The position numbers were made by a program, and so were the translations under genes. The notes beneath the pieces were generated by a model. That model had not been told where the DNA came from. It saw only the letters and a program-made list of their open reading frames with translations, and did no database searches. 64,000 nucleotides of DNA from Antedon bifida (taxonomy: Eukaryota > Echinodermata > Crinoidea > Comatulida > Antedonidae), in contig OY727100.1 of NCBI GenBank assembly GCA_963402885.1, positions 16,709,395-16,773,394 of the forward strand, in the 5' to 3' direction. This document shows positions 13,781 through 61,905 of this stretch, piece by piece (positions within the stretch are counted from its first letter, which is position 1; every line of letters begins with the position of its first letter).

Positions 13781-15084
13781 AGATGCATGACGTATCATTC
13801 ATGTCAAGATTGACAACATACATTACTGCAGTACGTATGTATACACACGTAAGATGTATGCTATAACGTGACGTATCATCCACGTCAAGATTGACAACAT
13901 ACATTACTGCAGTAAGTATGTATACGCACGTAAGATGTATGCTATAACGTGACGTATCATCCATGTCAAGATTGACAACATACATTACTGCAGTACGTAT
14001 GTATACGCACATAAGATGTATGCTATAACGTGACGTATCATCCACGTCAAGATTGACAACATACATTACTGCAGTACGTATGTATACGCACGTAAGATGT
14101 ATGCTATAACGTGACGTATCATCCACGACAACATACATTACTGCAGTATGTATTTATACGCACGTAATGTGTATGCTATAACGTGACGTATCATCCATGT
14201 CAAGATTGACAACATACATTACTGCAGTACGTATGTATACGCACGTAATGTGTATGCTATAACGTGACGTATCATCCACGTCAAGATTGACAACATACAT
14301 TACTGCAGTACGTATGTATACACACGTAAGATGTATGCTATAACGTGACGTATCATCCATGTCAAGATTGACAACATACATTACTGCAGTATGTATGTAT
14401 ACGCACGTAAGATGTATGCTATAACGTGACGTATCATCCACGTCAAGATTGACAACATACATTACTGCAGTACGTATGTATACACACGTAAGATGTATGC
14501 TATAACGTGACGTATCATCCATGTCAAGATTGACAACATACATTACTGCAGTATGTATGTATACGCACGTAAGATGTATGCTATAACGTGACGTATCATC
14601 CACGTCAAGATTGACAACATACATTACTGCAGTACGTATGTATACGCACGTAATGTGTATGCTATAACGTGACGTATCATCCACGTCAAGATTGACAACA
14701 TACATTACTGCAGTACGTATGTATACACACGTAAGATGTATGCTATAACGTGACGTATCATCCATGTCAAGATTGACAACATACATTACTGCAGTATGTA
14801 TGTATACGCACGTAAGATGTATGCTATAACGTGACGTATCATCCACGTCAAGATTGACAACATACATTACTGCAGTACGTATGTATACACACGTAAGATG
14901 TATGCTATAACGTGACGTATCATCCATGTCAAGATTGACAACATACATTACTGCAGTATGTATGTATACGCACGTAAGATGTATGCTATAACGTGACGTA
15001 TCATCCACGTCAAGATTGACAACATACATTACTGCAGTACGTATGTATACGCACGTAATGTGTATGCTATAACGTGACGTATCA
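13781..15084. repeat. 81-bp satellite, 16 units, with 405-bp higher-order repeat
   Basis: Each unit starts gacgtatcatccacgtcaag and contains acatacattactgcagtacg and cacgtaagatgtatgctata. Unit starts step by 81 from 13789 to 14995. One unit, at 14113, has lost 9 bp. Variant sites (cacgtc or catgtc; tacgtatgtatacacac or tatgtatgtatacgcac; aagatg or aatgtg) show that the five units from 14266 to 14670 repeat in the same order from 14671 to 15075. Because 81 is divisible by three and the unit lacks stops in one minus-strand frame, long open frames arise there as an artefact. Confidence 0.95.
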
Positions 15085-22818: not shown

Positions 22819-25800
22819 TCAATCCGTTTTTTTCATAGCTTCTGCTTTCTGTAAAAAATAAATAAAATGTAGCAATGTGTATATAATTCTTGTGTGTAAA
22901 TTCAACACAGTGCAAGGACATCATAAGTATGTGTTCATACAGTAAATACTAAATTTGTATACTGATTGATATTTACAACGTAATTAAGTTGACCTTATTA
23001 CATAATTCTTGTGTGTGAATTCAACATAATGCAAGGACAACATAAGTATGTGTTCACACAGTAAATAAACCGAACCTGTATATTTATTAATATTTACAAC
23101 ATAAACCTTGAACCTTATTACATAATTCTTGTGTGCGAATGCAACCTAGTGCACAAAAATAAGCCTGTGTTCACACAGTAAATACAAAATCTGCCCATTT
23201 CAACAGAAGCCGTATACACTGTTTACATACTATTCTACAAATTTACACTGTGATCATCAATAGAAGCAGTAATAATGGAATTCACATTAAACTTGACTTA
23301 AACAAGGTCAAAGGACAAACACCATACAGCAGCATTCAGAGGTTGTGTGTAAACAGTCTCAACGTGAAGAGAGATGTTTGTAGAAAGGACAATGCGACTT
23401 TAATTGATCCTTCTAACAAGGAGGGTTAGTAGTTTTTAAATCTCATCGCAAAAGATTAAAAGGGGGTAAAACTTGACAAGGGAAATGTTTGGCTCATATT
23501 GCCATTTTTTATAATTTGATGATTTTAATTTATGCTTGGTTTTATTTTATTTTGGCAATGAACCAAGCCATGATCAGCACACTACGAGTCAATTCCCTTC
23601 TCTCTTCACACATAAGCAATTTATGCACACCAGGAGCAACGGCTTTATGTCCCATCAAAGCATCTTACTTAATGATACAAGCAAAATGACACGGACAATT
23701 TTTGAACCTATGCATCTCACACGCTAGTCTATTACACTATCGCTTTCACCCAAAATAAAATTTTACTTTGCTTTTTTTTTAAACTAATTTCTGTATGCAT
23801 CAGAATTTGTAAAGCATTTTTGAAGTTATATGTTACCTTTTGTAAAAGTGCCTGTTTTGATTGAAACTCCTCTTTGGCTAACTCTATCTCAAGCCATTCT
23901 GGTAGATCTGGTATTAGTATTGCAATTGCTGCCTTGGCTCCAAGAAATAGATGCTGTAGAGAAACAATGTTTTAAAGCTGTAATTACAGTCTTTCACATG
24001 TTTAGCACATGAACAAAGAATGTATCAAGTGGTTAAGGATTTTAAATGAAGCCCTGTAAATGCCTTCATGATCGTATGGTAGTAGGTCTAGTAGTAGGTA
24101 TGATCGTATGGTAGTAGGTCTAGTAGTAGGTATGATCGTATGGTAGTAGGTCTAGTAGTAGGTATGATCGTATGGTAGTAGGTCTAGTAGTAGGTATGAT
24201 CGTATGGTAGTAGGTCTAGCAGTAGGTATGATCGCATGGTAGTAGGTCTAGTAGTAGGTATGATCGTATGGTAGTAGGTCTAGCAGTAGGTATGATCGTA
24301 TGGTAGTAGGTCTAGTAGTAGGTATGATCGTATGGTAGTAGGTCTAGTAGTAGGTATGATCGTATGGTAGTAGGTCTAGTAGTAGGTATGATCGTATGGT
24401 AGTAGGTCTAGTAGTAGGTATGATCGTATGGTAGTAGGTCTAGTAGTAGGTATGATCGTATGGTAGTAGGTCTAGTAGTAGGTATGATCGTATGGTAGTA
24501 GGTCTAGTAGTAGGTATGATCGTATGGTAGTAGGTCTAGTAGTAGTAGAAACAAGGAGCAACCATATTGGCCCAGCCTTTTACATTGCTGAGCAAAACTC
24601 CTAAAGTTCTGTCTACACTATCAAATTCGTTCCTGCCAAATTGGGTGTTTTATATGACAAGTACCCTGGTATGTGTAAACTCCTGAGTTTTGCTAGGTAA
24701 TGTGAAATGTGGGGTACAGTATATGTTTTAATGATAACCCATTTGTTTGGCCCTAATGGCAGTTCTACTGTATAAACAAAATAAGGACTATTTTAAAGTT
24801 CTGTCTACACTATCAAACTTTATGTGACAACAAAATGTGATGTGCCCATATATGAACATGTCATATCACTACCATATTTGGGTATATCACTACCATATTT
24901 GGGTATATCACTACCATATTTGGGTATATCACTACTATATTTTGTCATATCACACATTTTTTTGTAGACAGAAGTTTATGACAACCTTGCACTTACCTCA
25001 ACAGCTACAAATATAAGCACTTGCTTAATGAGCGATATTTGCGGCAACAGATCTTGGATCTCTGGTGACATGCCAATCAAGGCACAGTTAGTAACTACAG
25101 CCAACACACTCATTATCTCAAACACTATCTGAAATTTTACAATAAAATTTAATGACAAAAAACAAGAAGATCGACGTTTCAGAACCATCATGGAACCATT
25201 TTCAAGATCAAGTGATTGAATTATACAAAAACAACAAACACCAATGGATGACAGGAAATACTAATTAATTGGTTAATTAACATCAAAGAAGGCCTACTAT
25301 ACTATCTGAAAAGATAACAATCATTATATAATTGCAATTCGTCTAATGAGAAGTTCTACTGTATATGTTTTACTCATTACTGTATTGAAAAAAAGGAACG
25401 GTGGGTTTAAAAGGGCAATGTTGTACATAATACAGATTTAACTTAAACTTACCAACCAAGTGCCAATGTCTCCCGCTGGCCTGGAGAACGGACGTTGTAA
25501 AACTCTGCAAAACTTGAACGCATCTGATCGAATCTCAATCAAGTTGTTTGCTAAGGCAAAGCAGGCAGCAAGAGGATAGACAGCGGAGAATAATGAAATG
25601 TAACCAAATTGTAGAAATAATTCTAAATAATCATCAAATGTACCCTGTAAAAAAAAATTTAATTACAAATCTAAGCTCTAATCTCTCTGCCAAGTGGTCT
25701 CAAGTGGAATAATGTTACCAATGGTGTACAGCTCTGTCTACACTCTGTCTATACAAACTTAAGAAAAAAAAGTGATGTGCCCATAATGAACATGATTATG

Positions 25801-28800
25801 TCATCACTACCATATTTGGGCATATCTCTCTGGCTAGGCTAACAACTTACAAGGAAATGGCTAGGGAAGGAAAACCCCCGAAAGTAACCCATGATGAGTA
25901 GGCCAATACCCTGCTCATCCATTGAATTGGATTACAGAAAGTCAAACCCGGAATTTGTGGCAGTATGACTAGGGGAGCTGTAGCTTGGTGGTTAACATGC
26001 TTGCCTTCCAATCCCAAGGTCCAGGGTTTAATCCTGACCTAGTGCCAGGGTTGTAACTCATGACTCTTTCAACTCCACTCTCTAAGCCTCAAATGAGTCT
26101 TTATTAGCACGATCAAACATAAAATAGTTTATCCAGCCTGTAAATTGGTAATTACTTGATGTTGGATGCGAATGAAATAAAACAATTTTTTAAAAAGATA
26201 GTGAAAGCAACAAGGAAGCTAAAAACACAAAGGAGAAAACTTGGCAAGAAGGTGAAGAATACTGGTTAGCACTTGGACAGAGGAACTTGCCCAAAACCGT
26301 GTGAGGTGTGTAGTTGATGGCCTATGCACTGCTGGGTATAACATGGCACAAGTAATTACTATTCTACCAACCTCATATTCGTCCATTTTACTCTCTCTTA
26401 GAGCTGGATGTTCTTCAGACTTGTCGTGGGAATTCGGTAGAGCACCCTTCCTAATGAATCGAAGCACCAAGTACGGGATAACTGTTTCGATCATTTGATC
26501 GATCACTTGAGAGACAATCAACAAACTTGCTACATACTACAAAAAGAAGAACAAATTATATTGGTTTGTCTCCTTTCATGTCATATTCATTTATACACTT
26601 ATAATTATTTATTCATTTCAATCCTGACCTAGCGCCAGGGTTGTAACTCACGACTCTTTCAACTCCACTCCCTAAGCCTCAAATGAGACTATATAAGCAC
26701 GATAAATTATAAAATAGTTTATTCATTCTGTGGTGAGTTTGTGCTCGCCTATTGGATGCGTATGAAATAAAATTTAATATATAAATATTTATGTGCAATA
26801 ACATCAACAACTGACATACCTGTCTAAGTAACTTCATATCCCTGATGTAAAATGCAACATAGAACAATGACATGAAACAGTTGCAGAATTCAAACTGAAA
26901 TGAAAACAAATTATGAAATGAAAGTAAATTATTTACATTAGAGGAAGGAGTGAATGCAATAACATCTAATAATGTGTTAGTTAAGGTTAGTCAGTTTGAA
27001 ACACAAGCAATGTTAGATTAATGGATGGATTGACAAATAGAGTGAATGGTAGATTGATTGAAAGTGAAAGATTGATTGAAAGACTGAAAGATTGAAAGAT
27101 TAATTGAAAGACTGAAAGATTGAAAGTGAAAGATTGATTGAATGACTGAAAGATTGAAAATGAAAGATTGATTGAAAGACTGAAAAATTGAAAGTGAAAG
27201 ATTGATTAAAAGACTGAAAGATTGAAAGTGAAATAATGATTGAATGATAGCATTAATAACTGTTTGAATGATTGGATCATAGAGTTAAACTGAATAAAAG
27301 ACTGGATTAAAACATATATTAAATGATATATTTAAATTAATAACTTATATTGGATTGAAATATAAAGGATTGAAATATAAATGATTGATATAAAGGATTG
27401 AAATATAAAGGATTGGAATATAAATGAGTGAAAGCTACTGGTGAATGAATTGTTTGATTACTGAACACATGTAAAATAAAAGCAAAAACAAAATCACAGC
27501 ATACCACAACAAGTTTCAAGATAAGATTGTTTGCATAGGATGATTCTAAACGATGGTTCTCTACAAAGAAAAAACAAAGTTACTAATATTAATAGCCACC
27601 TAATTCTTAAGCTCTGTCTACACTATCAAACTAGTTTGATATGCCCAAATATGGTAGTGATATGCTCAAATATGGTAGTGATATGACATCATCATGTCCA
27701 TATCAATATTATTATGTGTATGTAATTGTAAAGGTAGTACAATGGTTTTTTCAGGCTCTGCCTTAGTTGTATGTCCTCCATCTTAATTTGTATTTTATGT
27801 TTGTTATGATGGAAATAAAGATTGATTGATTGATATATGGGCACATCATATTTATTTCTTGCATAAAGTGTTTTACTTAGTGTGGACAGAGCTTTACAGA
27901 AGCAGAATTTGGTTGACAATGTGACAAATTTGTTCTTTCTCTTTCAGATTTTCTCCAAACTGATTCAAAAGAAAAGTTTTGAATTTTTCATCATAACTTA
28001 CCCCAGTCGTTCAAGTACCGTGCCAACTTGCGATAAAGTTTGTTGCAGATGACGATCAAGATTGAGTAGACAATACTTGGAACTTGAATCATAACCTTGC
28101 CTTCAGTAGTGGTTATATCGTAATGTTTTAACACCACCTTCTCAAAATGAAACGACATCAACATCATCCAAAATGCACCAACAAGACATAGAATTATAAT
28201 AGGACAAGAAACAGCGTATTTTTTTAATGATCTCTTCCATTTTGGATAATGCGGTTCCTCACGTTTCGTCACCGGGTTGATCCAGACCTCACCGGTGTAT
28301 GACGGACGGGCTTCCTCAAACTTAACCATCCCATACGTGCCCCAACGAAATGCGGTTTCTGCACTTTTACGTTTCCATATCTCTAGAAAACATGTGGTCC
28401 AGACGAGGTTGAATACGGCAAAGAGTCCGTAACTGTGGCTGGCCCGTCGTTGACCTCCGAAGAAGTAGTAAATGATGCCGAAAACGGCAGGAAATACGAG
28501 CATTCTCGTGTAGAAGCCAAGGAACTTGAAGTATATTGCAACTGTCTCTCCAAAGTAGCGACGAATCATGTCTATGATAACAATTTAAACAAATTGAAAA
28601 TAACAAAGGACAGATTAACTGACGACACAAAAATTTAAATATTAATACTGAATATGATTTACAAACATACATAGTTACTTCATCGTGTTTGTAATATACA
28701 AACTTATGATGGTTACCTATAGGCTAAAGTTAACTTTGCTGATAACTGAAATAAAAACCAATCTATCATTCAATATTAATAATCATTTTTGGTTAAAGTG

Positions 28801-39755: not shown

Positions 39756-40910
39756 TTATTTTTCTTTATCATTGATTTCATCTGAGATGTCTTGAATAGT
39801 AATGGGAATTTTATCATACCCCATTAAATGAGCATAGTCATTTGGATTACTAAAACTTTCAACGTCCACCATAAACGATCTACCGTTCGCTTTAAACGTT
39901 GTGAAAATATTTGCCACACTAGGTACGAGAATGTCCTTCTGGTGAAATACATGCTTAACGTCCTGCAAAATAAAATTGATTGTGTACGCCGTGTAAATAT
40001 CTGTATCGTAGTTCAAATACATTCTAGTTACATATCCTTTTGTGAAGTAGTGCAAGAAAAGAGGCGTGAAGAACATAACAGAGGCCACTGATCCTGCGAC
40101 TAAACCGAGAATTCCAAATCCACCAGTGTCGTCATTTAGTAACAGCGTTGGAAAAATTGCTAAGCTGCAAAGGCTTGTTGATACAGAGAAAAACTTGACA
40201 AATCTAACTCGTTTTGTAATTTGGCCATCATAGATTTGGGCTCCTTGCTTAAGTTCACGTTCGGACATTGGTATGCATGAGCAACGGTAACTTGTGCTGA
40301 TTGGGCGGATGATCTGTTGACCATTTTGTATCACTACTGATGATTGAACGATTTTCCGGTGAATTGTATTAAACTTTCTTACCGAAGATATATTCTGTAA
40401 AAAACAAACATATGACAGTTTACTACGTTCTTTTAGTAATAACTGACTGTATCAATTAGATAAAGAGAGGTAGGCAGTGTAGGCCTAGGCTAGGGTTTTA
40501 TTATATTAATTATGACATCCCTGGCTGGCTGCCAATTGGCATTATTTAGCCTAGTAGTAGGTCTAGGCCTATATATTATTAAATAAATTGTATTATTGTA
40601 CATACATACTCATTAGCTAGTGTATAAATGAAACAAAACCTGACGTTTACATTTTAAAGGAAAGAAAGCCTCACAAACCAAACAGAACCCATTCAATTAC
40701 ACTGACGGTATTATCCATATGACCTAGGCCCTAGGCACAGGCAATGTGTATGTCCTGCCAATCTCCTCCGGTGTCGGGCTCTTTTCCACACGCTGACTGT
40801 ATGATGAACAGTCTGTGAGCAACGGAGCTAGGGGCCTAGCCCAATACAACATATAATAGTACAGTACTTACTTGTTTTATACAGCCAACACGCAGCAAGG
40901 CGGTAGACAT
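39756..40910 (-). CDS. TMEM70: TMEM70-like mitochondrial inner-membrane assembly factor, 2 exons, 225 aa
   Basis: Exon 1 is 40872-40910 (ATG, 13 codons, donor GTAAGT). Exon 2 is 39756-40394 (acceptor TTTTTTACAG, stop TAA); phase 0 joins them. The N-terminus is basic and hydroxylated (MSTALLRVGCIKQ then NISSVRKF), as expected for a mitochondrial presequence. The body has the family features: YDGQITKRVRFVKFFSVSTS before a first membrane span (about 82-99), a second span (about 107-130) ending in FLHYFTKGYVTR, then a matrix tail with VFHQKD, FTTFKA and HLMGYDK. TMEM70 helps assemble ATP synthase (subunit c ring) and complex I. Vertebrate proteins are about 260 aa; this one has a shorter presequence. 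A reading that starts at 40334 would use GTG and ignore the intron. Confidence 0.9.
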
Positions 40911-47482: not shown

Positions 47483-47491
47483 ACTTTTACA

Positions 47492-50400
47492 ATGCTTGAT
47501 GAAGAATATAGCGTTCTCGGATCTGCTCCTGGTGTACTGTATCTTAATCACGATACAAAAGGGTGGATCCGAATCGCACCATGTGTATTACAGTTTCTAG
47601 ATGTATCAAAAGGCTTTGTACTGAAAGCAGTACATGACAAAAGTGTTAGTACAGTAAAAAAATGTTTAATTGTTATAATAATAGAAGTGTTCATTCAAAT
47701 GTACCAATGCATTAAAAAATGGAGAGGGAGCAGAGACATGCCTGCAACACTTCAGCTAATAAGATATGGCAGTTTCAAATCATGCCCACGCTTACTCGGT
47801 CACCCACCACTACACCTGTGTGGCAGCGTGTTTGGCGTAAGAATGCAATAACGTGATCCTTGTATGCTAAATTTTAAATCTTTTATTTACAAAGATTTTA
47901 TTTATTTATTTTCAATAACCATAGACTGGAGTATTCGTGATGATTTAGATCATTGTTTTTTATCTTGGAAAAAAAATATCGTAACATTTTGAAATAAAAG
48001 AATAAAATGAATATTGCATTTCAGGTACTTCTTTACTCGCCCATGTCTAGCCTAAGTTTTAAGGTTGTTAGTACCTCCGTTCATGAATTTATATTACCTG
48101 ATAAGAAGCAATATCAAATGGAATATGAGAAAGTTACGGACGCCTCAAACTTTGGAACACTGCTTGGCAATGCGACGCATGAACAGAGGAAATCAGGTAG
48201 AGCATAGCAATGTGTAAAGATGTATTGGCCCCCAAAAACATGAAAAATGAAGATTAATTAAATCAGATTTTGAATAGGTTATTTTGTAATTTTATTAAAG
48301 TTAATCACTTGTTTTCACTTCAAAAATGAAAAAATAAATGGTTAAGTTCAACCAAAAACCCATTGGCTGGAAGACAATTTGACTATTTTTTCAGGTATAT
48401 AACTTTTTTATATCCAATTTTTGGTCTTAGTGGATAACTATTATGTGAAATTGAAATGACATATTCAAAAAATATTTTTTCAGCGGGACAATGCATCTTT
48501 AACTTTTTAAACCTTTAAATCGAGTGGCTCAGTAGTTACACATATTACCTATGAACCCTCATTGTATATCACATTACAGGTTGAAGTGGGTTTAGGGTTA
48601 GAGAGTTACTGTACAACGTATCTTCCCCTTGTTTTCTAAATTCTGAATATCTCTCTTGGACTAACTTGAAATAAGTTATATCTACATGAATGTTACAATT
48701 TATTGAAAAGGACTTTAAATAGTTAAATACACATGGCATTTCCTGAAAAGTAGGGTGATTCCCTACGTATATCCTGCCCAATTCAGTTCCTGTCATGAGA
48801 CTGGAATAAAACTCAGTCACCAACTTGCAAAATGGCATATGTGTGATTAAGTATCAAGTCAGTTGACTTAAATAACAAATTCAACCCATGTTTTTTAACA
48901 TTATGTGAGACAGACCAGGAAGGAAATATATTTCATATCATAACAGCACAAAAGAAATTGATTGATTCTTAGCAATCGATGCTGCGTGGGGCCTTCTCAT
49001 TGTTATGCTAATAACATTATTCAGTTTGAGGGGAAAGTCCAGAATTAAAATAGGGAATTTCCAACAATGTAAATTTGTATATCAATTCTAATCATAGCAT
49101 TTTGGTTGAAAGACAGTGAAGGATTCACAGTTATGTGTTAGTAAATTCAACCCTGGTGTACCAAAAGGTTTTAGTTTTTTAAATTCAGGTTTGTTTAATG
49201 TTATTTAAGAGGTAGTTGCAATTCATATCGTAGTATATATTTTATCAATTATGTTAATACAGTAATCCTTATTTATACCGTAATTGTTAATACTAAAATG
49301 GGCCTACTGTGTACATTGTATGATTCTGTTCATGTTCATTACTGTAGGGCACAAACTGTACATGACCAAATATAGTCCCAGGGGGCCTGGATATGAAATT
49401 TGGCGAAAAGGGTTGGGATTATATTTGGGTGGATTGCATGGATTTACCAAATTAACCTAAAGTTTGTAGGACATAGTGATTAGGGGGTGGGATTATACTT
49501 GGGCGTGGTATTATACTCAGTCAAATACTACGATCCTATACAGGGGGCACCCACCTTTTAAGAGGACAGTTTGATAGGTCCCAAGGGTGTCCCCTTAATA
49601 GGAGTTCTACTCTAAAGTATTTTAATGATTGTACAATAAATCTGATTACTACAACCTTATTTTTAGCTTTTGAGAGGGGTCACGTCGAGATGGCTGCACA
49701 GCGGCACATCAGTGGTGGAGACTCGTCATCGGGGAAAGGCGAATTACTAGGTATGACAAAATATTACACTGTGTAACTTCTAATTTCCTACTCTAGTCAA
49801 AAAGTTTAGAAATTTAGTTTTTCAACACCAAATAAAGAAAATTCTTAATATTTTGAATTTAAAACAGTAATATTTTTATTGTAATGTAATGATATAGATT
49901 TATAATTGAGAAATCAACCTTTGTATTACAATTCAATTGAGTTCACCAATTTGCCCCAGAAAGGTCCAGTGAAGAAATTGTCCAGATGTTTTAATGTCCA
50001 TTAGTCCATAATTAAATCCAAAAAGAAAACAGTTGATTTGACCATATGATCTTTCACATCATAAAACTATTAGATATTGACAGTTTTAAGCAGAGATTCG
50101 ACAGGGCCAATTCATCATTGTAACCCCCCCCCCCCCCCCCCAGATAAAATCAATCACTTCCATCCTAACGTACCTGGACAGACTTGGGACCAATCATTAA
50201 GCTCACAGATTATGTAATGACATATGCTAATGAACTGAAGCCGATATACCCCCAAGTTTGAGAATAGCCCAAACACACCTCATAGACACTTCTTCGAAGA
50301 CACACCTTACTGACACTTCCTCAGAAGCACATCTACAGCCACACCTCACTTACAGCATCACTTATACTTTGTTCCTGTTTCTGTATAATTATATTGTATC

Positions 50401-53400
50401 ATGTATTATAACGTATTATTGAATAAACAACTATGATATTCAATCAACCAAGCGAGTAGTCTTTAATACAGTAAAACCTCCACACATTATATTACATTAT
50501 AAATTAAAAGACAAATTACTGAAAATATGACAATGCTGTGGGTAAATAATCCAGAATACAATTTTTATCATGACTTTTCATTGCCTTTGTATTGTATGTA
50601 ATGTACAGTAAATAAATAAATGAAACGAAAATAAAACTTTAAATTTTTTTTAAATTTGTTATAGACTCTCTTGCAAAGGAATTAATGGTCAGCATTAATG
50701 AAGGTGATCAGCAAAAGGCTGGAGAAATAGCAAAGAGACTAGCACAAGAAAAGGCTTGTTTAGCTGTTAGCCAATCTGCAAATACAACAAATATCTCAAA
50801 GACTGATAATAGGATCATGTTAGTTTACTAACCTTTTTCAATTTTAAATTCCCATAAATTGGTTATTTGTGAAGAAAAGTTGTTGTGTTGATAAAACAAG
50901 TACAATAAGCTCTGACTACACTATCACATTTTATGTGACAAAAAAAATGTGATGTGCCTATATATGGATATGCTGATGTCATATCACTACCATATTTGGG
51001 CATATATATTCTACATTTGGGCACATCACACTTTTTTGATAGTGTAGACAGAGCTTTCATTTAAAGTTTGAATCAAACAGAACTCTTAATTCTCTTAAAC
51101 AAAATCACGTCCTAATCAAAATCTTAAGTTGCGAGTCATGCAGTAACACACAAACGTAAAAGAAATACAGTAGTAAGGTAAAATGAGTGAATTGTGAATA
51201 GAGAACAGAACTTTACCAACTAACCAACAACATACTGGCGGGTCAATTTACATCAGTGTTGCGCATAATTTATAATTGCATACTTTATTGATATTAATGT
51301 TAAATATCCACTGCACCAAATATGATGATAAAGAAGAGAAGCAACAAGAATTGAAATTCATTTTCATATTTTTAAAAATTGCTTTTTTTTACCAGTCTTA
51401 GGATTTCAGTTGAAGATCGTTTTAAATCATCAATAAAAATAACATTGAAGGTTAAGCCATCAATATCAATCAAGTCATTAAAAGAAAAGGCAAGTATATA
51501 TATTTCAACATAAATAGATAAAAACAAATTATGACTATAGCAGCCCAAAGAGTTGAGTTGCAGAAATAATAAACAGCAAATTTACAACATAAATAAAAAC
51601 ACAATATACAAAAAGCGCAGTCAAGTAAAAAATATAAACAGTATGGTTTAATGGTTCTGGTTGTTCAAATGAACTAAAAACTTCAGAGTATGTCTGGCTC
51701 ATATGCACTATAAAGAACCCAAGTATCTTTCAGAAGACTAGTATTTTCCCTGGTCTACTGTTCCATCTTACTACTTAGCCCCTGTTGTTCATTGTTGATG
51801 GACACTATGTATGCAGTGAGTCATGGAGAACCTTAATTTGAATTTCATCAACTGAGGGTGAATAGTAGAAAACAAACAAAACAAGCAATCAGGCTGTATA
51901 AAGAAATAGATACAGTATATCAACCCATAGTAATAAAATAATCTGCTAGTTTAATTACTTTACCTCTGTACCTCCATTTTTTATTTCATACATATTATAC
52001 CAGTTACAGCATGGATAAACTGTATAATGTTTATAAATAAAGTCTAATTTGATGTTTAGTGAGTGGAGTAGAAACAGTTGGTTATATAATGTGATGAATA
52101 AACACATTTGTGTTTGTAGCCATAAAGTTAAAACCCTAGTATTGGACACTGGACCTTGGAGGCAAACCACTCAACTACCCAAGTGCAGCTACTGTAAATC
52201 TACAGTTTACGGGTATTAAGCACCAATGTGCATACATAGATAACAGCAATATCTTCCATTGACAATCTCTCTCTAACCACTGTACTATTTTTTTTTTCAC
52301 AGATGCATACAGATTACAACTTTCCACCAGAAGTTCAAAGATGGATTGTGGGCCATCGAATTGTGAGGGATGATGAAACGTTACAAGCGTTAAGCATTGA
52401 CCAATCAGGATACATGGTCTTTCTTTATTTAACACAAAAAGAAGAAGCACCAAGAAACGCTATTGAAAATCCTGGTTAGTATTTAATGAATAAGAATTGG
52501 AAAATGAATAGGAATTAGAAAATGAATAAATTGCTCTCAACTTTTTCATATGGATGTCTCAACAACTATTGTGTAGAATATTATAAATTAATATATTTTT
52601 CTTACACAGAAGCAGCCGAAAACTTGATAGATGATTCAATACAAGTCGCCTCTAGTTTGGCTAGTGTTCGACCTAAACCTGCTCCCAGGCCTGGTTTTCA
52701 ACCACGCAGACAACATGTTCCCTTTGAAAATGTTCAGAAACTTGTCAGAGATGTTATGCAAAGTAAAGAGCCAGTCTTGCCCTCTGCTTTAGGGAAGAAA
52801 TCTGCATTGGATGTAAGTATTCTATTTAAAGTCTTACAAATCTATCTCATTATTTCAAATGGCTATCCTTTCTCTTATTCAAAATGACAGTATATATACC
52901 TGCATCCTTACCTCCATATAACCATGATATAACTATCCACATCCAACTATCGTGCTTGAAATATCACCATTACTGACTGTGGAGTACAGTACTATACAGT
53001 ATATCCAGCCTATAGTGTCAGACAAAATGGAATTTATCGAGGGTGCTCTTTCTAGTTGTAGTTACATTCACAATATTACATACATTGAAACATCACTAGC
53101 AATGTAACTTTCTCTTGTCAGGTCGGCTGGCACTGTGAAGTCTGTACGATGGTAAATGCTCCTCGTAGACCAAGCTGTCACATGTGTTCAAACCCGAGAC
53201 CTGATAACTATGTGCTACCGCCGATTGATTCGTACGAGTTGGATGCGGTTGAGAAAAGGCTAATAGAAGAAGAAAAACAACATGAAGATGTTATGAAACA
53301 GGTAAGTGCCTAAAAAATTAAAATATCTTGATTGTCAAAATTGTAAGATCATTCTTTAGTAGAGGATCTCATGCCGGCTGACAAAGTATCACTATTCGGC

Positions 53401-54208
53401 TTGCTGCGTGCTTTGCGACGCGATGTCAAACTTCAATGAATTGGTAAAGCTATTTATCAAACTGCTGAGAACTATTGAAGTAACATTCTGGTAATATAGA
53501 GTAAGCTCTAATGTAGGTGTTACTTCTCTTCTAGTTGGTTTAAATACTCAGTCCGTCCTCCTCCTACACCCTTTATCCTCTAATAATAAAACTAAATACA
53601 ATATAAATTTCCAAATTAGAACTAAAATATTTTTAAATTTTTTTATTTTTAGGATGATCTGCAAGGGTCTGGGTTACTAGTGGGAGGAGGAGACGGGAGG
53701 ATGATTCATGAACCTCAATCACTTATATCGTTCCAAGAGGATGAAAATAACTTTTAAAATATTAACAAAAAGTTTTAAAAAAGTAACACAAAAGTAAAAC
53801 AAAACTATATTACAGCAAAGTTAGAAATTTTGATAATCATACTTAGAGAAATTACACATTGCGCATGTATATATTTCGTAAATGAGTCAATAAGATGTTA
53901 AAGCTTTATTGGGCGTTAGTTTTTATTTATTTTGTGTCATCATAAAATGAAATTAGGTTTACAGCAAGCGGTAGTTTTTCTGGCAGATCATTTAGTGACG
54001 TGTATGTTGTATAAATAACATTATTGTAAAGTTATGTATCGGGTAATATTATTAAATATTAAAACGTTCTGTCAAACAACTTTTTGTTGGAGAGTTTGCT
54101 ATACAAGTTACATGGAGTACATGAAAAGTAATCTCACATACTTAGAATGACAAATTTGTACACGGCTTTTAATGTCGAACCCGTAGCATGCATCTCACTT
54201 CTTTCTAT

Positions 54209-54239
<31 letters not shown>

Positions 54240-57200
54240 TCCTACCTTAGAAATAATATACCATTTAACATTGGCATAGGGCAAAAACACTTTACCTTAG
54301 CTTGGGTGGCTTACAGTGGTGGATCCAGGGCCTAAAAATAGTGAAATGAAGGACTGGGCTTAATTTGATGTCCTATCTTTTGCATTATGATTTTGCGAAA
54401 TTTAGGGTGGATCTACCCCTGGGTTAGAATTTCTTCTATTCCTGTAAAATTAATATTAAGTAGTTGATATTTTATCAAATTTGGGAGAATTAACATTCCA
54501 TTAAGAAAAAAAAAATCATTGAAAGTGTAGTTGTAAAATTATTGAATAATATAATTACCACATTATTATTATACGGTACTTGATTATGTGTTGTATGAAG
54601 CAGTATATTAGACCAAAACAAAACAGCAAAAATAAACAATAACTATAAAAGCAAATGAAATTGTGTAGTTTACATATTGTGTATTTTTTTTTATATGGCT
54701 GTTTTTTTTAATGTAAAATTAAAATCATCTTGTCTGCTGTATATTGAAGGGACAATAAAATAATTTATATTCATGTAAAATATTTTGAAAAATAGATAGA
54801 GGAAGCCGATCGACAGGCAGCTGTTTTAAATTTTGAGCGTCTGCAAGAATACGACCAGTTGGACGTAATACCAAATAACGAAGCTTTTACTTGCTTGATA
54901 TGTTACGATGACTTGGAAGCTGGAGAAGGCATCACTCTGCGGGAATGCCTACACTCGTTCTGCAAGTAAGATTACAGAAGTTAAAATATACGTAATAAAA
55001 TCAATAAGGTTTTGTGGTTAATATGATTGGTTCTGATTCCAAAGGTTGGATTTCGGAATCATTTCTCATGAAAACAACTCCACTCCCAAAGACTTTTTAA
55101 AAGATTTTATATGTGTAGAGTATTGTATTCATTGTTGTTCTATAAACATGGCTGACACTTTCAAGAAGAATAATTAATGAATTCACTTATAGTTATTATT
55201 GGCAACCAGTGGTAATAATTATTACTCCATGGTTAAACACAGGGGCCCCATAGCTTATGAGGCCCTTGAGGCTATGGCTAAGAATGCCAGAGGCCTCCAG
55301 CGATGGAGGGCCACTTAGATTCTCTAAATTAGGGGTGTTGATAACTAAATGTACAGTATATACAGTAATGAATGAAATGAACACCACTGGCAATCTATTA
55401 ATTTATTTATTTTATTCATTGTTTAATTTGATTACATTTTTTAGAGAGTGTCTAACAGGACATATTTCTGTCTGTGAAGAACCTGAAATCAAGTGTCCAT
55501 TTCAGGACAACGAATTTTCTTGCGATGCTTTAATCCAAGACCGCGAAATCAGAGCAGTAAGTGGAAATATTAAAAATACAAACAAAACATAGCAAGTAAT
55601 AATATAATATATATATATATATATAAATCCAAAGGCAAATTACTGAAAAAATGACAATGCTGTGGGTATCAGTGGCTGGATCTCAATGGAGATACAAAAA
55701 AAAAGCGAAAAGCTAAATCAAAACGATAAAGTAAAACAGCCAGAAAAGTTAGCAGAGCTTTCGGGCAACACTAGCCCTTCATCAGTGTATATATATATAT
55801 ACATTAATAAAAAAGAAAAAAAAACTCTATTATATTACTACTACTGATCTCAGGATGGCATTCCACCTGAAGAGCATCTTTGACTTATATAAGACATGTT
55901 TATTATTATTCTGTATGATCTTAGAATGATAGTGAATTACTTACTTTTTTCAGCTTGTTGACGATGAGCAATATCAAAAACACCTGCAGCGTTGCCTCGC
56001 AACTGCCGAGACTCAAGCTGGCAACAGTTTCCATTGTAAGACCGTGGACTGTCATGGCTGGTGCATATACGAAGACGACGTCAACTTCTTCCCTTGCCCG
56101 ATCTGCGGAAAGAGGAACTGTTTGACGTGTAAAGCCATTCACGAAGGAATGAACTGTAAAGAATATCAGGACTCGTTGCAAATAAATGCTATGAATGATA
56201 AAGCAGCTAAGCAGACACAATTGATGCTGGATGTAAGTTGCAAGTTGCTGCTCAAATCAAACAGTGAGAGGGAGGTCTATTCAAACCACACAATGAAATA
56301 AAATATGTAAACCTGTCCATGATATCCTACAATAGTACCATGGTGTGGTATCTGCTTGTGTACCACCACCGCTCCCTCCTCCCCATCCCCTTCTATGATG
56401 GTGCTTGACAAAAATACAATTATTACTTGTACAGTTTGAGTTTACATTTTCCTAAATGATTGTAAAAGTATAGTAGTACAGTAAGTGTAGCTATTGTTAC
56501 CAAAAAAAGTTTTTTCAACTCCTTGGTGTCATCTCCCATAGGCATATCCAAAGAGGGAAAGCTGGCCTGGGACCCACTAAATATTGAAATCTGCAATACA
56601 GAAGATAGAACATTAGGTTTAGTTCAGCACTTCATTGTACTATTTTTAGGCCCCTGGGCTCCCCCTTTTTCAAAATGTTGGATCCTCCACTACCTCCCTG
56701 TACAAGACAGATCAAATTACAAATGAAAAAACCTATCAAATTTGTATTCATCAGAATGTATTTTTAAAATTGTATGTTTTGATTTTTAGGAAATGGTTAG
56801 AAATGGAGATGCCATGCACTGTCCAAAATGCAAGATCATTGTACAGAAGAAGGACGGTTGTGATTGGGTGAGATGTACCATGTGCAAGACTGAAATATGC
56901 TGGGTCACTAAGGGACCAAGATGGGGTCCAAATGTGAGTGGACACTATACATTCATTATAGCTATAGGCCTACCTTAAATACTATATATATATATACTAT
57001 AAGTTAATAAGGGGATATAAGATGTCAGTGGCCAAGTGGCACACCATACGTTCTTGAAAAATGTTGAACAATGCAGGTTTTCTTACTACCCAATGAGCCA
57101 AATCTATCAGGTTGATATTTAACCAGTTGTATAAAAGACATGTGCACTCTTTAGTACATTTGTTTTCTCTTTACCAAAACATACAGATTGTTCACTAATT

Positions 57201-57434
57201 ACTAACAAACCAACAATAATTACTACCTAATTAATACTCTATGTACTCTATGCCCACTTCTATTATTATGGCTAAGTACTGTATATAAAAATCAATAAAA
57301 ATATAAAACTTCCAAACAATATTGATAATTGTATGTTATATTCTTATTTTCAGGGCAAGGGAGACAAATCAGGAGGATGTCATTGTCGAGAAAATGGTCG
57401 TCTTTGTCGGCCAAATTGCCAGAACTGTCATTAG
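47492..57434 (+). CDS. RBCK1: HOIL-1/RBCK1-type RBR ubiquitin ligase with SHARPIN-like N-terminus, 13 exons, 668 aa
   Basis: Exons: 47492-47653, 48025-48196, 49667-49750, 50665-50818, 51396-51489, 52303-52474, 52610-52812, 53122-53301, 54796-54965, 55445-55556, 55954-56232, 56790-56933 and 57354-57434; all phases join. Order of domains: PH-like fold (about 15-105; [20 protein letters not shown]), LUBAC-tethering segment (140-176; [20 protein letters not shown]), ubiquitin-like domain (190-275; [12 protein letters not shown]), NZF finger (C352, C355, C366, C369), RING1 (C440-C490), IBR (about 529-590), RING2 with catalytic C618 in QKKDGCDW and a C-terminal CQNCH. Human HOIL-1 (510 aa) lacks the PH part, which is typical of SHARPIN. 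In mammals HOIL-1, SHARPIN and HOIP form LUBAC, the linear-ubiquitin ligase of NF-kB signalling. The intron after 51489 uses a GC donor (AAG then GCAAGT). Confidence 0.93.
48215..48502. mobile_element. MITE-like element, family C, 19 bp after an exon end
   Basis: Left end taaagatgtattggccccc and right end gggacaatgcatctttaa. Matches the element at 15231-15525. It begins 19 bp after the end of coding exon 2 of the HOIL-1-type gene, leaving the donor intact. Confidence 0.8.
50117..50471 (+). mobile_element. possible solo LTR
   Basis: Begins TGTAAC followed by 18 C and ends in ctttaataca, so it has TG...CA borders. It contains attgaataaacaactatgat, like a polyadenylation signal near an LTR end. 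No target-site duplication is evident. The fragment just after it (gacaaattactgaaaatatg, acaatgctgtgggta) recurs at 55635. Weak call. Confidence 0.3.
50908..51056. mobile_element. foldback MITE, family A, in the HOIL-1-type gene
   Basis: Left end taagctctgactacactatc, arms atgtgatgtgcctatatatg and catttgggcacatcacactt, right end tttgatagtgtagacagagc. Lies in the intron between coding exons 4 and 5. Confidence 0.75.
53653..53757 (+). CDS. alternative terminal exon giving a 441-aa SHARPIN-like isoform
   Basis: After the NZF exon (donor at 53302) an acceptor (tttattttttag) opens a phase-0 exon of 34 codons ending in TAA: it starts [13 protein letters not shown] and ends FQEDENNF. If used, the protein stops after PH-like, tethering, ubiquitin-like and NZF parts, which is the domain order of SHARPIN, and loses the whole RING-IBR-RING. 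Tandem ATTAAA signals at 54051-54063 followed by a T/G-rich stretch could end this transcript. Skipping it joins the NZF exon in frame to the RBR exon at 54796. The exon is supported by splice site, phase, composition and polyadenylation context, but not by transcript data. Confidence 0.6.
   Translation, partial: DDLQGSGLLVGGGDGRMIHEPQSLISFQEDENNF
54051..54063 (+). terminator. tandem ATTAAA polyadenylation signals
   Basis: ATTAAA at 54051 and again at 54058, followed by actttttgttggagagtttg about 15 bp later. The position is about 300 bp after the stop of the alternative terminal exon. Confidence 0.5.
54314..54420. mobile_element. hAT-like transposon fragment
   Basis: Begins cagtggtggatccagggcct, a variant of the CAGTGGCGGATCC end, and matches 11700-11791 in inverse orientation (gtgaaatgaaggactgggct). 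Confidence 0.55.
55620..55790. repeat. dispersed repeat with 'gagctttcgggcaacactag' motif
   Basis: Carries aatgacaatgctgtgggta, shared with 50505-50540, and gagctttcgggcaacactag followed by cccttcatcagtg, a style seen at the ends of Penelope-like or related elements in marine invertebrates. AT microsatellites flank it on both sides. Confidence 0.4.
56630..56700. mobile_element. hAT-like end fragment in an intron
   Basis: ttaggcccctgggctccccc ... atgttggatcctccactacc resembles the GGATCC-containing ends elsewhere in the window. Confidence 0.35.
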
Positions 57435-60227: not shown

Positions 60228-61905
60228 AATACCAGTGTGGACATACCTTGCTATGGTGCTGCAGAGGATGCACCTGCAGATATCAATTAGAAGTCTGGCG
60301 TATCGATGCAAGACAACGCCGTGCCATCCTTAAGACATCAGTTCACTGTACGGACACTGTGCATTGTCCTATCGATGTTATTATTACAGATCGGGACAGT
60401 TAGGGCAGGTAGGCTAAAGAAGACCGTGTTTTGCATTAAGCTCTGTCTACACTATCAAATGATAGTGATGTGTCCAAATATAGTAGATATATATATATAT
60501 ATATAGATTCGACATCATCATGTCCATATATGGGCACATCACATTTGTTGTCACATAAAGTTTGATAGTGTAGACAGAGCTTTAATGTACGAAAAAAGGA
60601 TTCTGTAAAAAAAACTACTTTACTAGTATTGCTGTACTATACTGTACCTAATATTAGTAGGTCGTTTAATAAAAGATGTCAATATCTTAACCGTTTATAT
60701 ATTCCTTTACAGCACCAACCATCATTAGTGTTAGTGTACAGGTAACTACTGTGGTTACAACCTCACCACCAGCGACTGTCAAGACATCTGATGATGACAC
60801 TTCTAGCGAACACTTCTTTTATGATATTCCACCGGCAGCTTCTACTATCCTCATTACCGTTTTTGCGGCAATATTCAGTTACGCTCTGTCCGTTGCCATT
60901 AAGTTGCTCTGCCCAGATCAATGTGATCACCATGGCACGTGTTCCGCCACAAACACTGCCTTGTGTTGCAGACGATACAGAAGGACTGTCAATCCGATGT
61001 CTAAGTGTAGCGACACAGAAGCTAAATCATCGTATCGGCGCCAATATCCAAAACCAGTCGACGGAATACCGTATGGAAGACCGGATTACCAAAAGACCGT
61101 ACAAGAATGGTTGGAGCAAGTGGACCACACAATCGGTGTCCCGGATGAGACATTACAAGGAGTTTCAGAAACGGACGTTAATCCTGACAATATGCCATCT
61201 GTTCGGTACGATCGAGAAACTGACCAAGCAGTTATCGATACAAAGAGAATGCCATATACAAACACTGATGATACAAAAACATTGTCTTCTCATTTCAACA
61301 ATAGTGAGGAATGCACAGAGAAAGACACACAGAAACTTGATAATTTATTCATTGTGATACCTGCTGCAGGAATAACGGAAGCAGATAAAATGAAAACAAA
61401 TATAGAAAAACATACATTTATTGTGCAAGCAGAAATAAATGGTTGTGCACCTAGTTATGAGATAGCGTCAGCAAATAAAACGACGTCACAGTCAGAAAGA
61501 GATATTGAACTACAAGCAAGGCGTGGTAAAGACTGTGAAATACACCGTTCTCCAGATACATCTCCAGATAGTCTGAAAGAGAAAGAGCCACTGTTGTCTC
61601 CTTCTCATACCACCAGTACCTCGCTAACACCAACGTCCGCTGCTTCACCTATCAGTCGACCTTCAAGTATGGCATTAGAATCAATACATACGGACAGCAC
61701 ATCCATCCAAGAGGAAAGTACAGCAGACGATACACGACAATCTGGTAATCATCCAGATGTCGTGGTGACGTCATCTTCCGCGTACGCTACAGACATTTTG
61801 AATCATGATTATGAGTGTACATCACCTGAAGAAACAAACGAAATTGGTGACATTCAAGAATATATTTTAGACGGTGAAACAACTGATAAGGAGACTGATG
61901 TTTGA
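60228..61905 (+). CDS. 3' part of a single-pass membrane protein, family unknown
   Basis: Exon 60228-60398 (acceptor actttttttag, donor GACA then GTTAGG) joins in phase 1 to the terminal exon 60713-61905 (acceptor ttcctttacag, stop TGA). The first exon encodes a cysteine-rich ectodomain piece (YQCGHTLLWCCRGCTCRYQL). It is followed by a Thr/Ser/Pro stalk (VTTVVTTSPPATVKTSDDD) and one hydrophobic span at about 60838-60909 (STILITVFAAIFSYALSVAI). A cysteine-rich juxtamembrane segment (CPDQCDHHGTC) comes next, then about 310 residues of polar, acidic, Ser/Thr-rich tail with no known domain. The tail has EKEPLLSP and a C-terminal acidic end. The 5' exons and signal peptide are not identified. The terminal exon continues upstream of the first possible internal start, so the gene does not begin there. 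I do not recognise the family. Confidence 0.7.
60438..60583. mobile_element. foldback MITE, family A, in the intron of the membrane-protein gene
   Basis: Left end taagctctgtctacactatc and right end tttgatagtgtagacagagc, with an internal (AT)n run at 60488-60506. The flanks read gcat-taagc and gcttta-atgt, so a TA- or TTAA-type target is possible. Confidence 0.8.

Follow-up and report, generated by a model that had tools for sequence, protein, structure and literature searches.

A predicted crinoid gene with a HOIL-1-type RBR ligase, a putative SHARPIN-like head, and a candidate short splice form

INTRODUCTION

HOIL-1 and SHARPIN are partner proteins of the linear ubiquitin chain assembly complex (LUBAC), an immune ubiquitin ligase, and are encoded by two genes in vertebrates. 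Vertebrate HOIL-1 has no PH domain, and vertebrate SHARPIN has no RING-IBR-RING (RBR) ligase. RBCK2, which arises from RBCK1 (HOIL-1) by splicing in mammals, stops before the RBR; it also has no PH, and the genome that encodes it carries SHARPIN as well. The need for two look-alike accessory subunits in LUBAC has been studied in mammals. Here, we describe a gene from the crinoid Antedon bifida that appears to unite the parts of both proteins. It lies in a 64,000-nucleotide stretch of the forward strand (GenBank assembly GCA_963402885.1, contig OY727100.1, positions 16,709,395 to 16,773,394), referred to below as the window, within which all coordinates are given unless a contig is named.

In Aplysia californica, HOIL1 and SHARPIN are both assigned to a single gene (LOC101863809) with four isoforms; one of these is described as lacking the RBR, and a role as a functional analogue of SHARPIN has been suggested for it (PMC9334734). 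With this precedent in print, the single-gene idea is not wholly new. In a literature search whose coverage excluded most subscription journals, the Aplysia paper was the only one seen to treat HOIL1 and SHARPIN as one gene. Drosophila LUBEL, a HOIP-family linear-ubiquitin ligase, is said to work without regulatory subunits (PMC12778051), and one review describes LUBAC expression as restricted to chordates (PMC4765238).

Our analysis suggests that the Antedon gene is probably the pro-orthologue of vertebrate HOIL-1 and SHARPIN, a single-copy relative from before their duplication. The most useful addition is a candidate alternative last exon, which was absent from an initial annotation of this DNA.

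RESULTS

Gene model

The gene comprises 13 exons on the + strand (47492 to 57434), which splice in frame to 2007 bases and 668 amino acids, exactly reproducing the product given in the initial annotation. Intron borders are GT-AG in 11 of the 12 introns and GC-AG in intron 5, and the phases are consistent throughout. The exons and the candidate alternative exon are as follows.

47492 to 47653, + strand: exon 1, amino acids 1 to 54, where the putative SHARPIN-like PH head begins; splice donor uncertain (alternative at 47644)
48025 to 48196, + strand: exon 2, amino acids 55 to 111, second half of the putative PH, with the bulk of the Sharpin_PH match (amino acids 50 to 110)
49667 to 49750, + strand: exon 3, linker
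50665 to 50818, + strand: exon 4, LUBAC-tethering motif (LTM), amino acids 142 to 176; the sole LTM match found in the genome
51396 to 51489, + strand: exon 5, first part of the ubiquitin-like domain (UBL); GC donor
52303 to 52474, + strand: exon 6, remainder of the UBL
52610 to 52812, + strand: exon 7, linker
53122 to 53301, + strand: exon 8, NZF and the stretch after it; top-scoring donor of the gene (11.78)
53653 to 53757, + strand: candidate alternative last exon, continuing the frame of exon 8 for 34 codons up to a stop; product without the RBR
54796 to 54965, + strand: exon 9, in which the RBR begins (RING1); weak acceptor (2.31)
55445 to 55556, + strand: exon 10, second part of RING1
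55954 to 56232, + strand: exon 11, IBR region, from the alignment to HOIL-1
56790 to 56933, + strand: exon 12, RING2, with catalytic Cys618
57354 to 57434, + strand: exon 13, last part of the Zn2/Cys6 motif, with His668 as the final residue

Exon 1 has a low-scoring donor at 47653 (1.11), and an alternative in-frame donor at 47644 (4.64) would shorten the product by 3 residues. An acceptor-like site at 47483 (score of 4.83) lies directly 5' of the first ATG. An additional exon upstream of exon 1 is therefore possible, and the first residues of the protein are provisional.

The HOIL-1 half

The C-terminal 268 residues (amino acids 401 to 668) had HOIL-1 (8eaz) as their top PDB match, with 342 bits. 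HOIL-1 chain 5y3t_A aligned across the LTM and UBL with 71 bits in one search and 74.7 bits in another. The catalytic Cys618 lies in the motif KKDGCDW, with a Trp two positions after it. A Zn2/Cys6 pattern (C-x19-C-x-C-x6-C-x3-C-x2-C) begins at Cys631, and the protein ends in CH (His668). The spacing of Cys618, the Trp, Cys631, and His668 is identical to that of C460, W462, C473, and H510 in HOIL-1, as reported together with its Zn2/Cys6 motif (PMC9834252). By its PDB match and these residues, the RBR is of the HOIL-1 type.

When the full protein was scanned against Pfam, the UBL (amino acids 205 to 267; ubiquitin family, E = 8.1e-8, 32.4 bits) was the sole match over its curated cut-off. The NZF (amino acids 350 to 375; E = 1.3e-5) scored 24.7 bits, short of its cut-off of 27, but rose above it, to 29.9 bits, in the single-exon frame. 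RING families at amino acids 439 to 483 and IBR families at 590 to 636 all fell below their cut-offs. So did the LTM (amino acids 142 to 176; E = 3.1e-4, 21 bits against 27.5), a point against the pro-orthologue reading. The LTM, the UBL, the NZF, and a full RBR with catalytic Cys, Zn2/Cys6 motif, and terminal His are common to this protein and vertebrate HOIL-1 (RBCK1). The two differ at the N terminus: the LTM of 5y3t_A lies inside the first 40 residues, whereas the Antedon protein has about 140 residues ahead of its LTM, with a weak match to Sharpin_PH.

The putative PH head

When amino acids 1 to 111 were searched alone and matches were inspected up to an E value of 5, Sharpin_PH (PF16764; curated cut-off of 27 bits) was the only Pfam family listed (E = 0.048, 13.9 bits, profile positions 57 to 119 of 121). 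The segment also agrees with SHARPIN in its location ahead of the LTM, its length, and its order. We judge it likely that the head is a SHARPIN PH domain.

Several results speak against this assignment. Sharpin_PH was not listed up to an E value of 5 in the scan of all 668 amino acids. With the LTM part added to amino acids 1 to 111, its E value was 0.09, and a pair of unrelated families stood close by (0.15 and 0.22). For the shorter splice form (108 amino acids) it was 0.066, and with the LTM part 0.12, level with or close to unrelated families at 0.12 and 0.14. Trimmed pieces of 104, 101, and 90 amino acids matched no Pfam family. The 111-amino-acid piece had no PDB match up to an E value of 10, and the 108-amino-acid form had one, to an unrelated chain (E = 0.46). 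In pairwise comparison with the human SHARPIN PH, the local score was reached by 62 of 3000 shuffled sequences and the end-to-end score by 18 of 3000. An hhalign comparison with the same domain gave a probability of 0.63 over a 25-residue aligned core, and 9 of 300 shuffles scored as high, so it adds little to the case. A search of the genome with the Sharpin_PH family at an E value of 0.001 found no matches, not even to the gene's own exons, and none in 14 controls, which makes it uninformative. The initial annotation had assigned a SHARPIN-like PH fold, an LTM, a UBL, an NZF, and a complete HOIL-1 RBR to this product; all were recovered except the PH fold, which is unconfirmed at an E value of 0.048.

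Number of loci in the genome

We searched the genome (315.6 Mb in 27 contigs) exon by exon, scoring only the best candidates; a strongly diverged SHARPIN could escape such a search. The LTM family had a single match, exon 4 (E = 0.003, 26.3 bits, below the cut-off). Two bacterial controls also matched this family at E values up to 1, so lone weak matches mean little. The PH piece had four matches up to an E value of 5, two of which were its own exons (the others had E values of 1.59 and 4.82). With the piece from LTM to NZF, 23 matches were found up to an E value of 1: 6 were in the gene itself (E of 5.7e-9 or lower), and the remaining 17 had E values of 0.047 or higher. Human SHARPIN gave four matches up to an E value of 5, the best two being exons of the Antedon gene, those for the UBL (E = 0.001) and the NZF (E = 0.0014); the remaining two (E = 0.0037 and 0.022) span an NZF alone. 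Thus, the best candidates of these exon-wise searches included no further LTM, PH, or SHARPIN gene, and a hidden second SHARPIN, for which the Sharpin_PH family was also used, was rejected on the same basis. The searches support one predicted gene in place of the vertebrate two.

Unlike the situation described for Drosophila LUBEL, the Antedon genome has HOIP parts in addition to this accessory gene. A UBA_HOIP match lies on contig C13 (731197 to 731478), with two LDD pieces on the same strand at 710148 to 710736, and two more LDD pieces lie on contig C1. The genome may therefore have two HOIP-like genes. The second LDD-family site, on C1 (23352959 to 23353356, - strand), has cysteine-rich RING-like frames nearby. 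The stretch of C13 that holds the HOIP UBA match also contains three or more almost identical frames that are rich in cysteine and resemble a B-box (728801 to 738700; CVLCGV..CQQCGDARCVQCDAKWHRHK). Contig C12 has a weak match to the OTULIN family (27.2 bits for a cut-off of 27; E = 3.1e-4), interrupted by five internal stops. Contig C27 (15,844 bases) encodes a mitochondrial COX1; translated with genetic code 9, its AAA codons specify Asn at two conserved sites, in keeping with an echinoderm or a near relative.

Relationship to vertebrate HOIL-1 and SHARPIN

Across the LTM and UBL, human HOIL-1 and SHARPIN share 65 identical residues over 135 positions; the Antedon gene shares 46 over 134 with HOIL-1 and 43 over 135 with SHARPIN. 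Where all three can be aligned, 30 sites are identical throughout, 34 are shared by HOIL-1 and SHARPIN only, 16 by Antedon and HOIL-1 only, and 12 by Antedon and SHARPIN only. The initial annotation had proposed a phylogeny of the shared region as a check. In a UBL phylogeny built by maximum likelihood from six sequences and rooted on ubiquitin, HOIL-1 and SHARPIN were paired in 74% of 200 bootstraps, and the Antedon gene fell outside the pair. The site counts and the tree show the pattern expected if the duplication followed the split of the Antedon line from vertebrates. Bit scores were consistent with this: 107 for human SHARPIN against HOIL-1 5y3t_A, 74.7 for the Antedon gene against the same chain, and 54.5 for the Antedon gene against SHARPIN 5y3t_C (polyubiquitin chains outscore the 5y3t chains for the Antedon LTM-UBL solely through the summing of repeats). 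Caution comes from the tree itself, which has minimal taxon sampling, a remote outgroup, and 74% support; fast change in the Antedon gene could also produce the same picture.

The best-surviving alternative, which we nevertheless regard as unlikely, is that this is an ordinary HOIL-1 orthologue: the duplication would be older, a separate SHARPIN would have been lost or overlooked, and the first 111 amino acids would be unrelated or lineage specific. The LTM-UBL is indeed nearer HOIL-1 than SHARPIN (74.7 versus 54.5 bits), the PH evidence is below the cut-off, and the genome searches score best candidates alone. A one-to-one orthologue should, however, resemble vertebrate HOIL-1 more than SHARPIN does, and the Antedon gene does not (46/134 against 65/135, with 43/135 to SHARPIN); the rooted tree agrees at 74%. 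Moreover, Sharpin_PH is the sole family found for amino acids 1 to 111, which lie ahead of the LTM as the PH does in SHARPIN.

It is very improbable that exons 1 and 2 come from a neighboring gene and were joined by an annotation artifact to a HOIL-1 gene beginning at exon 3 or 4. Their per-codon scores are the lowest (exon 1, 0.118) and third lowest (exon 2, 0.200) of the 13 exons, with exon 5 at 0.177 between them, and their donors are weak (1.11 and 1.91), as is that of exon 3 (1.90). They are nevertheless on the same strand, their phases fit through exon 4, and what they match, if weakly, is the domain found ahead of the LTM in SHARPIN. Least probable of all is a secondary, lineage-specific fusion of a SHARPIN-like gene to the 5' end of a HOIL-1 gene: the parts of both proteins do share one reading frame, but we rated this low because there is no second set of LTM, UBL, and NZF and because the UBL falls outside the vertebrate pair in the tree, and Aplysia, too, has one gene listed for both proteins (PMC9334734).

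An undivided ancestor thus ranks ahead of a fusion because of the shared-site counts and the ubiquitin-rooted UBL tree. The initial annotation had left the choice between these two open; a single gene stands, with the ancestral state fitting better (34 sites versus 16 and 12; 74% support), and the PH fold that was part of that proposal is unproven. Relative to vertebrate SHARPIN, the predicted protein shares the order PH-LTM-UBL-NZF if its putative PH (Sharpin_PH match below threshold) is genuine, its LTM-UBL is more distant from SHARPIN than that of HOIL-1 is, and its full-length product differs in carrying an RBR with catalytic residues.

Candidate alternative last exon

Acceptors were scored at the 12 used sites by leave-one-out and at unused AGs within the gene's introns. 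The acceptor at 53653, between the NZF exon and exon 9, scored 13.29 and ranked first among 387 unused AGs (the runner-up, at 49189, scored 12.5). It also outscored all 12 used acceptors (1.60 to 13.09), including that of exon 9 (2.31), with which it would compete. The donor before the candidate exon, at 53301, is the gene's highest (11.78). The frame opened at 53653 runs for 34 codons in the correct frame before a stop. Its codon score, trained on the same gene, was 10.9 in the correct frame and negative in the other five, and only 5 of 6091 overlapping intron windows of equal length were both open and scoring as high. Variants of the poly(A) signal follow the exon (AGTAAA at 53793, CATAAA at 53941, TATAAA at 54010, and ATTAAA at 54051 and 54058, with others further on).

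If used as a last exon, this segment would yield a predicted product of PH-LTM-UBL-NZF plus a 34-amino-acid tail, the layout of SHARPIN; this proposed short form would have the same parts as SHARPIN and, like it, no RBR. The RBR-less isoform reported for Aplysia (PMC9334734) makes the candidate exon more believable. The likeness to LOC101863809, drawn from its published description, is that of a single gene.

Other observations count against the candidate exon. The acceptor of exon 4 (1.60) is below that of exon 9, so the weakness of the latter is by itself no sign of regulation. An equally long frame was opened by 34 of 322 other AGs, which makes the frame length unremarkable. The first canonical AATAAA appears only at 54631, with variants alone before it. 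An inner donor at 53679 (3.43, better than 3 of the 12 used donors) would turn the segment into an in-frame cassette of 9 codons, which we consider less likely than a last exon.

Other features of the window

On the - strand, a frame at 27991 to 28584 matched anoctamin (PF04547, E = 2.8e-55), and one at 39756 to 40451 matched the TMEM70/186/223 family (PF06979, E = 2.1e-29). A 404-amino-acid open frame at 60691 to 61905 (+ strand) had no Pfam match at an E value of 0.01; by eye, it is Ser/Thr rich, with one hydrophobic stretch near its start. Two tandem repeats were seen: an 81-base unit at 13788 to 15084 (16.1 copies, 94% matches) and a 32-base unit at 24068 to 24545 (14.9 copies, 98% matches). 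As 81 is a multiple of three, the former may account for long open - strand frames there.

DISCUSSION

We suggest the following mechanism from the domain content of the predicted protein. It would join HOIP via its UBL and LTM, and its NZF would read linear ubiquitin. The HOIL-1-type RBR would attach ubiquitin, probably through ester bonds, as reported for HOIL-1 (PMC6613137, PMC9527308). The head, probably a SHARPIN-type PH, would serve dimerization, in line with the dimerization reported for the SHARPIN PH (PMC9084887).

Since a single LTM was found, it would have to pair with itself, in long-long, short-short, or long-short combinations. If the short form ending at 53653 to 53757 is also produced, we favor a pair of one long (HOIL-1-like) and one short (SHARPIN-like) protein because it rebuilds the vertebrate trio. 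In the vertebrate line, duplication would have left one copy that lost the PH and another that lost the RBR. We tentatively propose, as a possibility at somewhat less than even chances, that a pre-vertebrate gene made both LUBAC accessory subunits as long and short forms pairing via the same LTM and that vertebrate HOIL-1 and SHARPIN are these splice forms fixed as genes.

If true, this would give SHARPIN a testable origin and would predict an LTM that pairs with itself. It would also provide a simpler LUBAC, one that allows the contribution of the PH to be distinguished from that of the HOIL-1 ligase activity.

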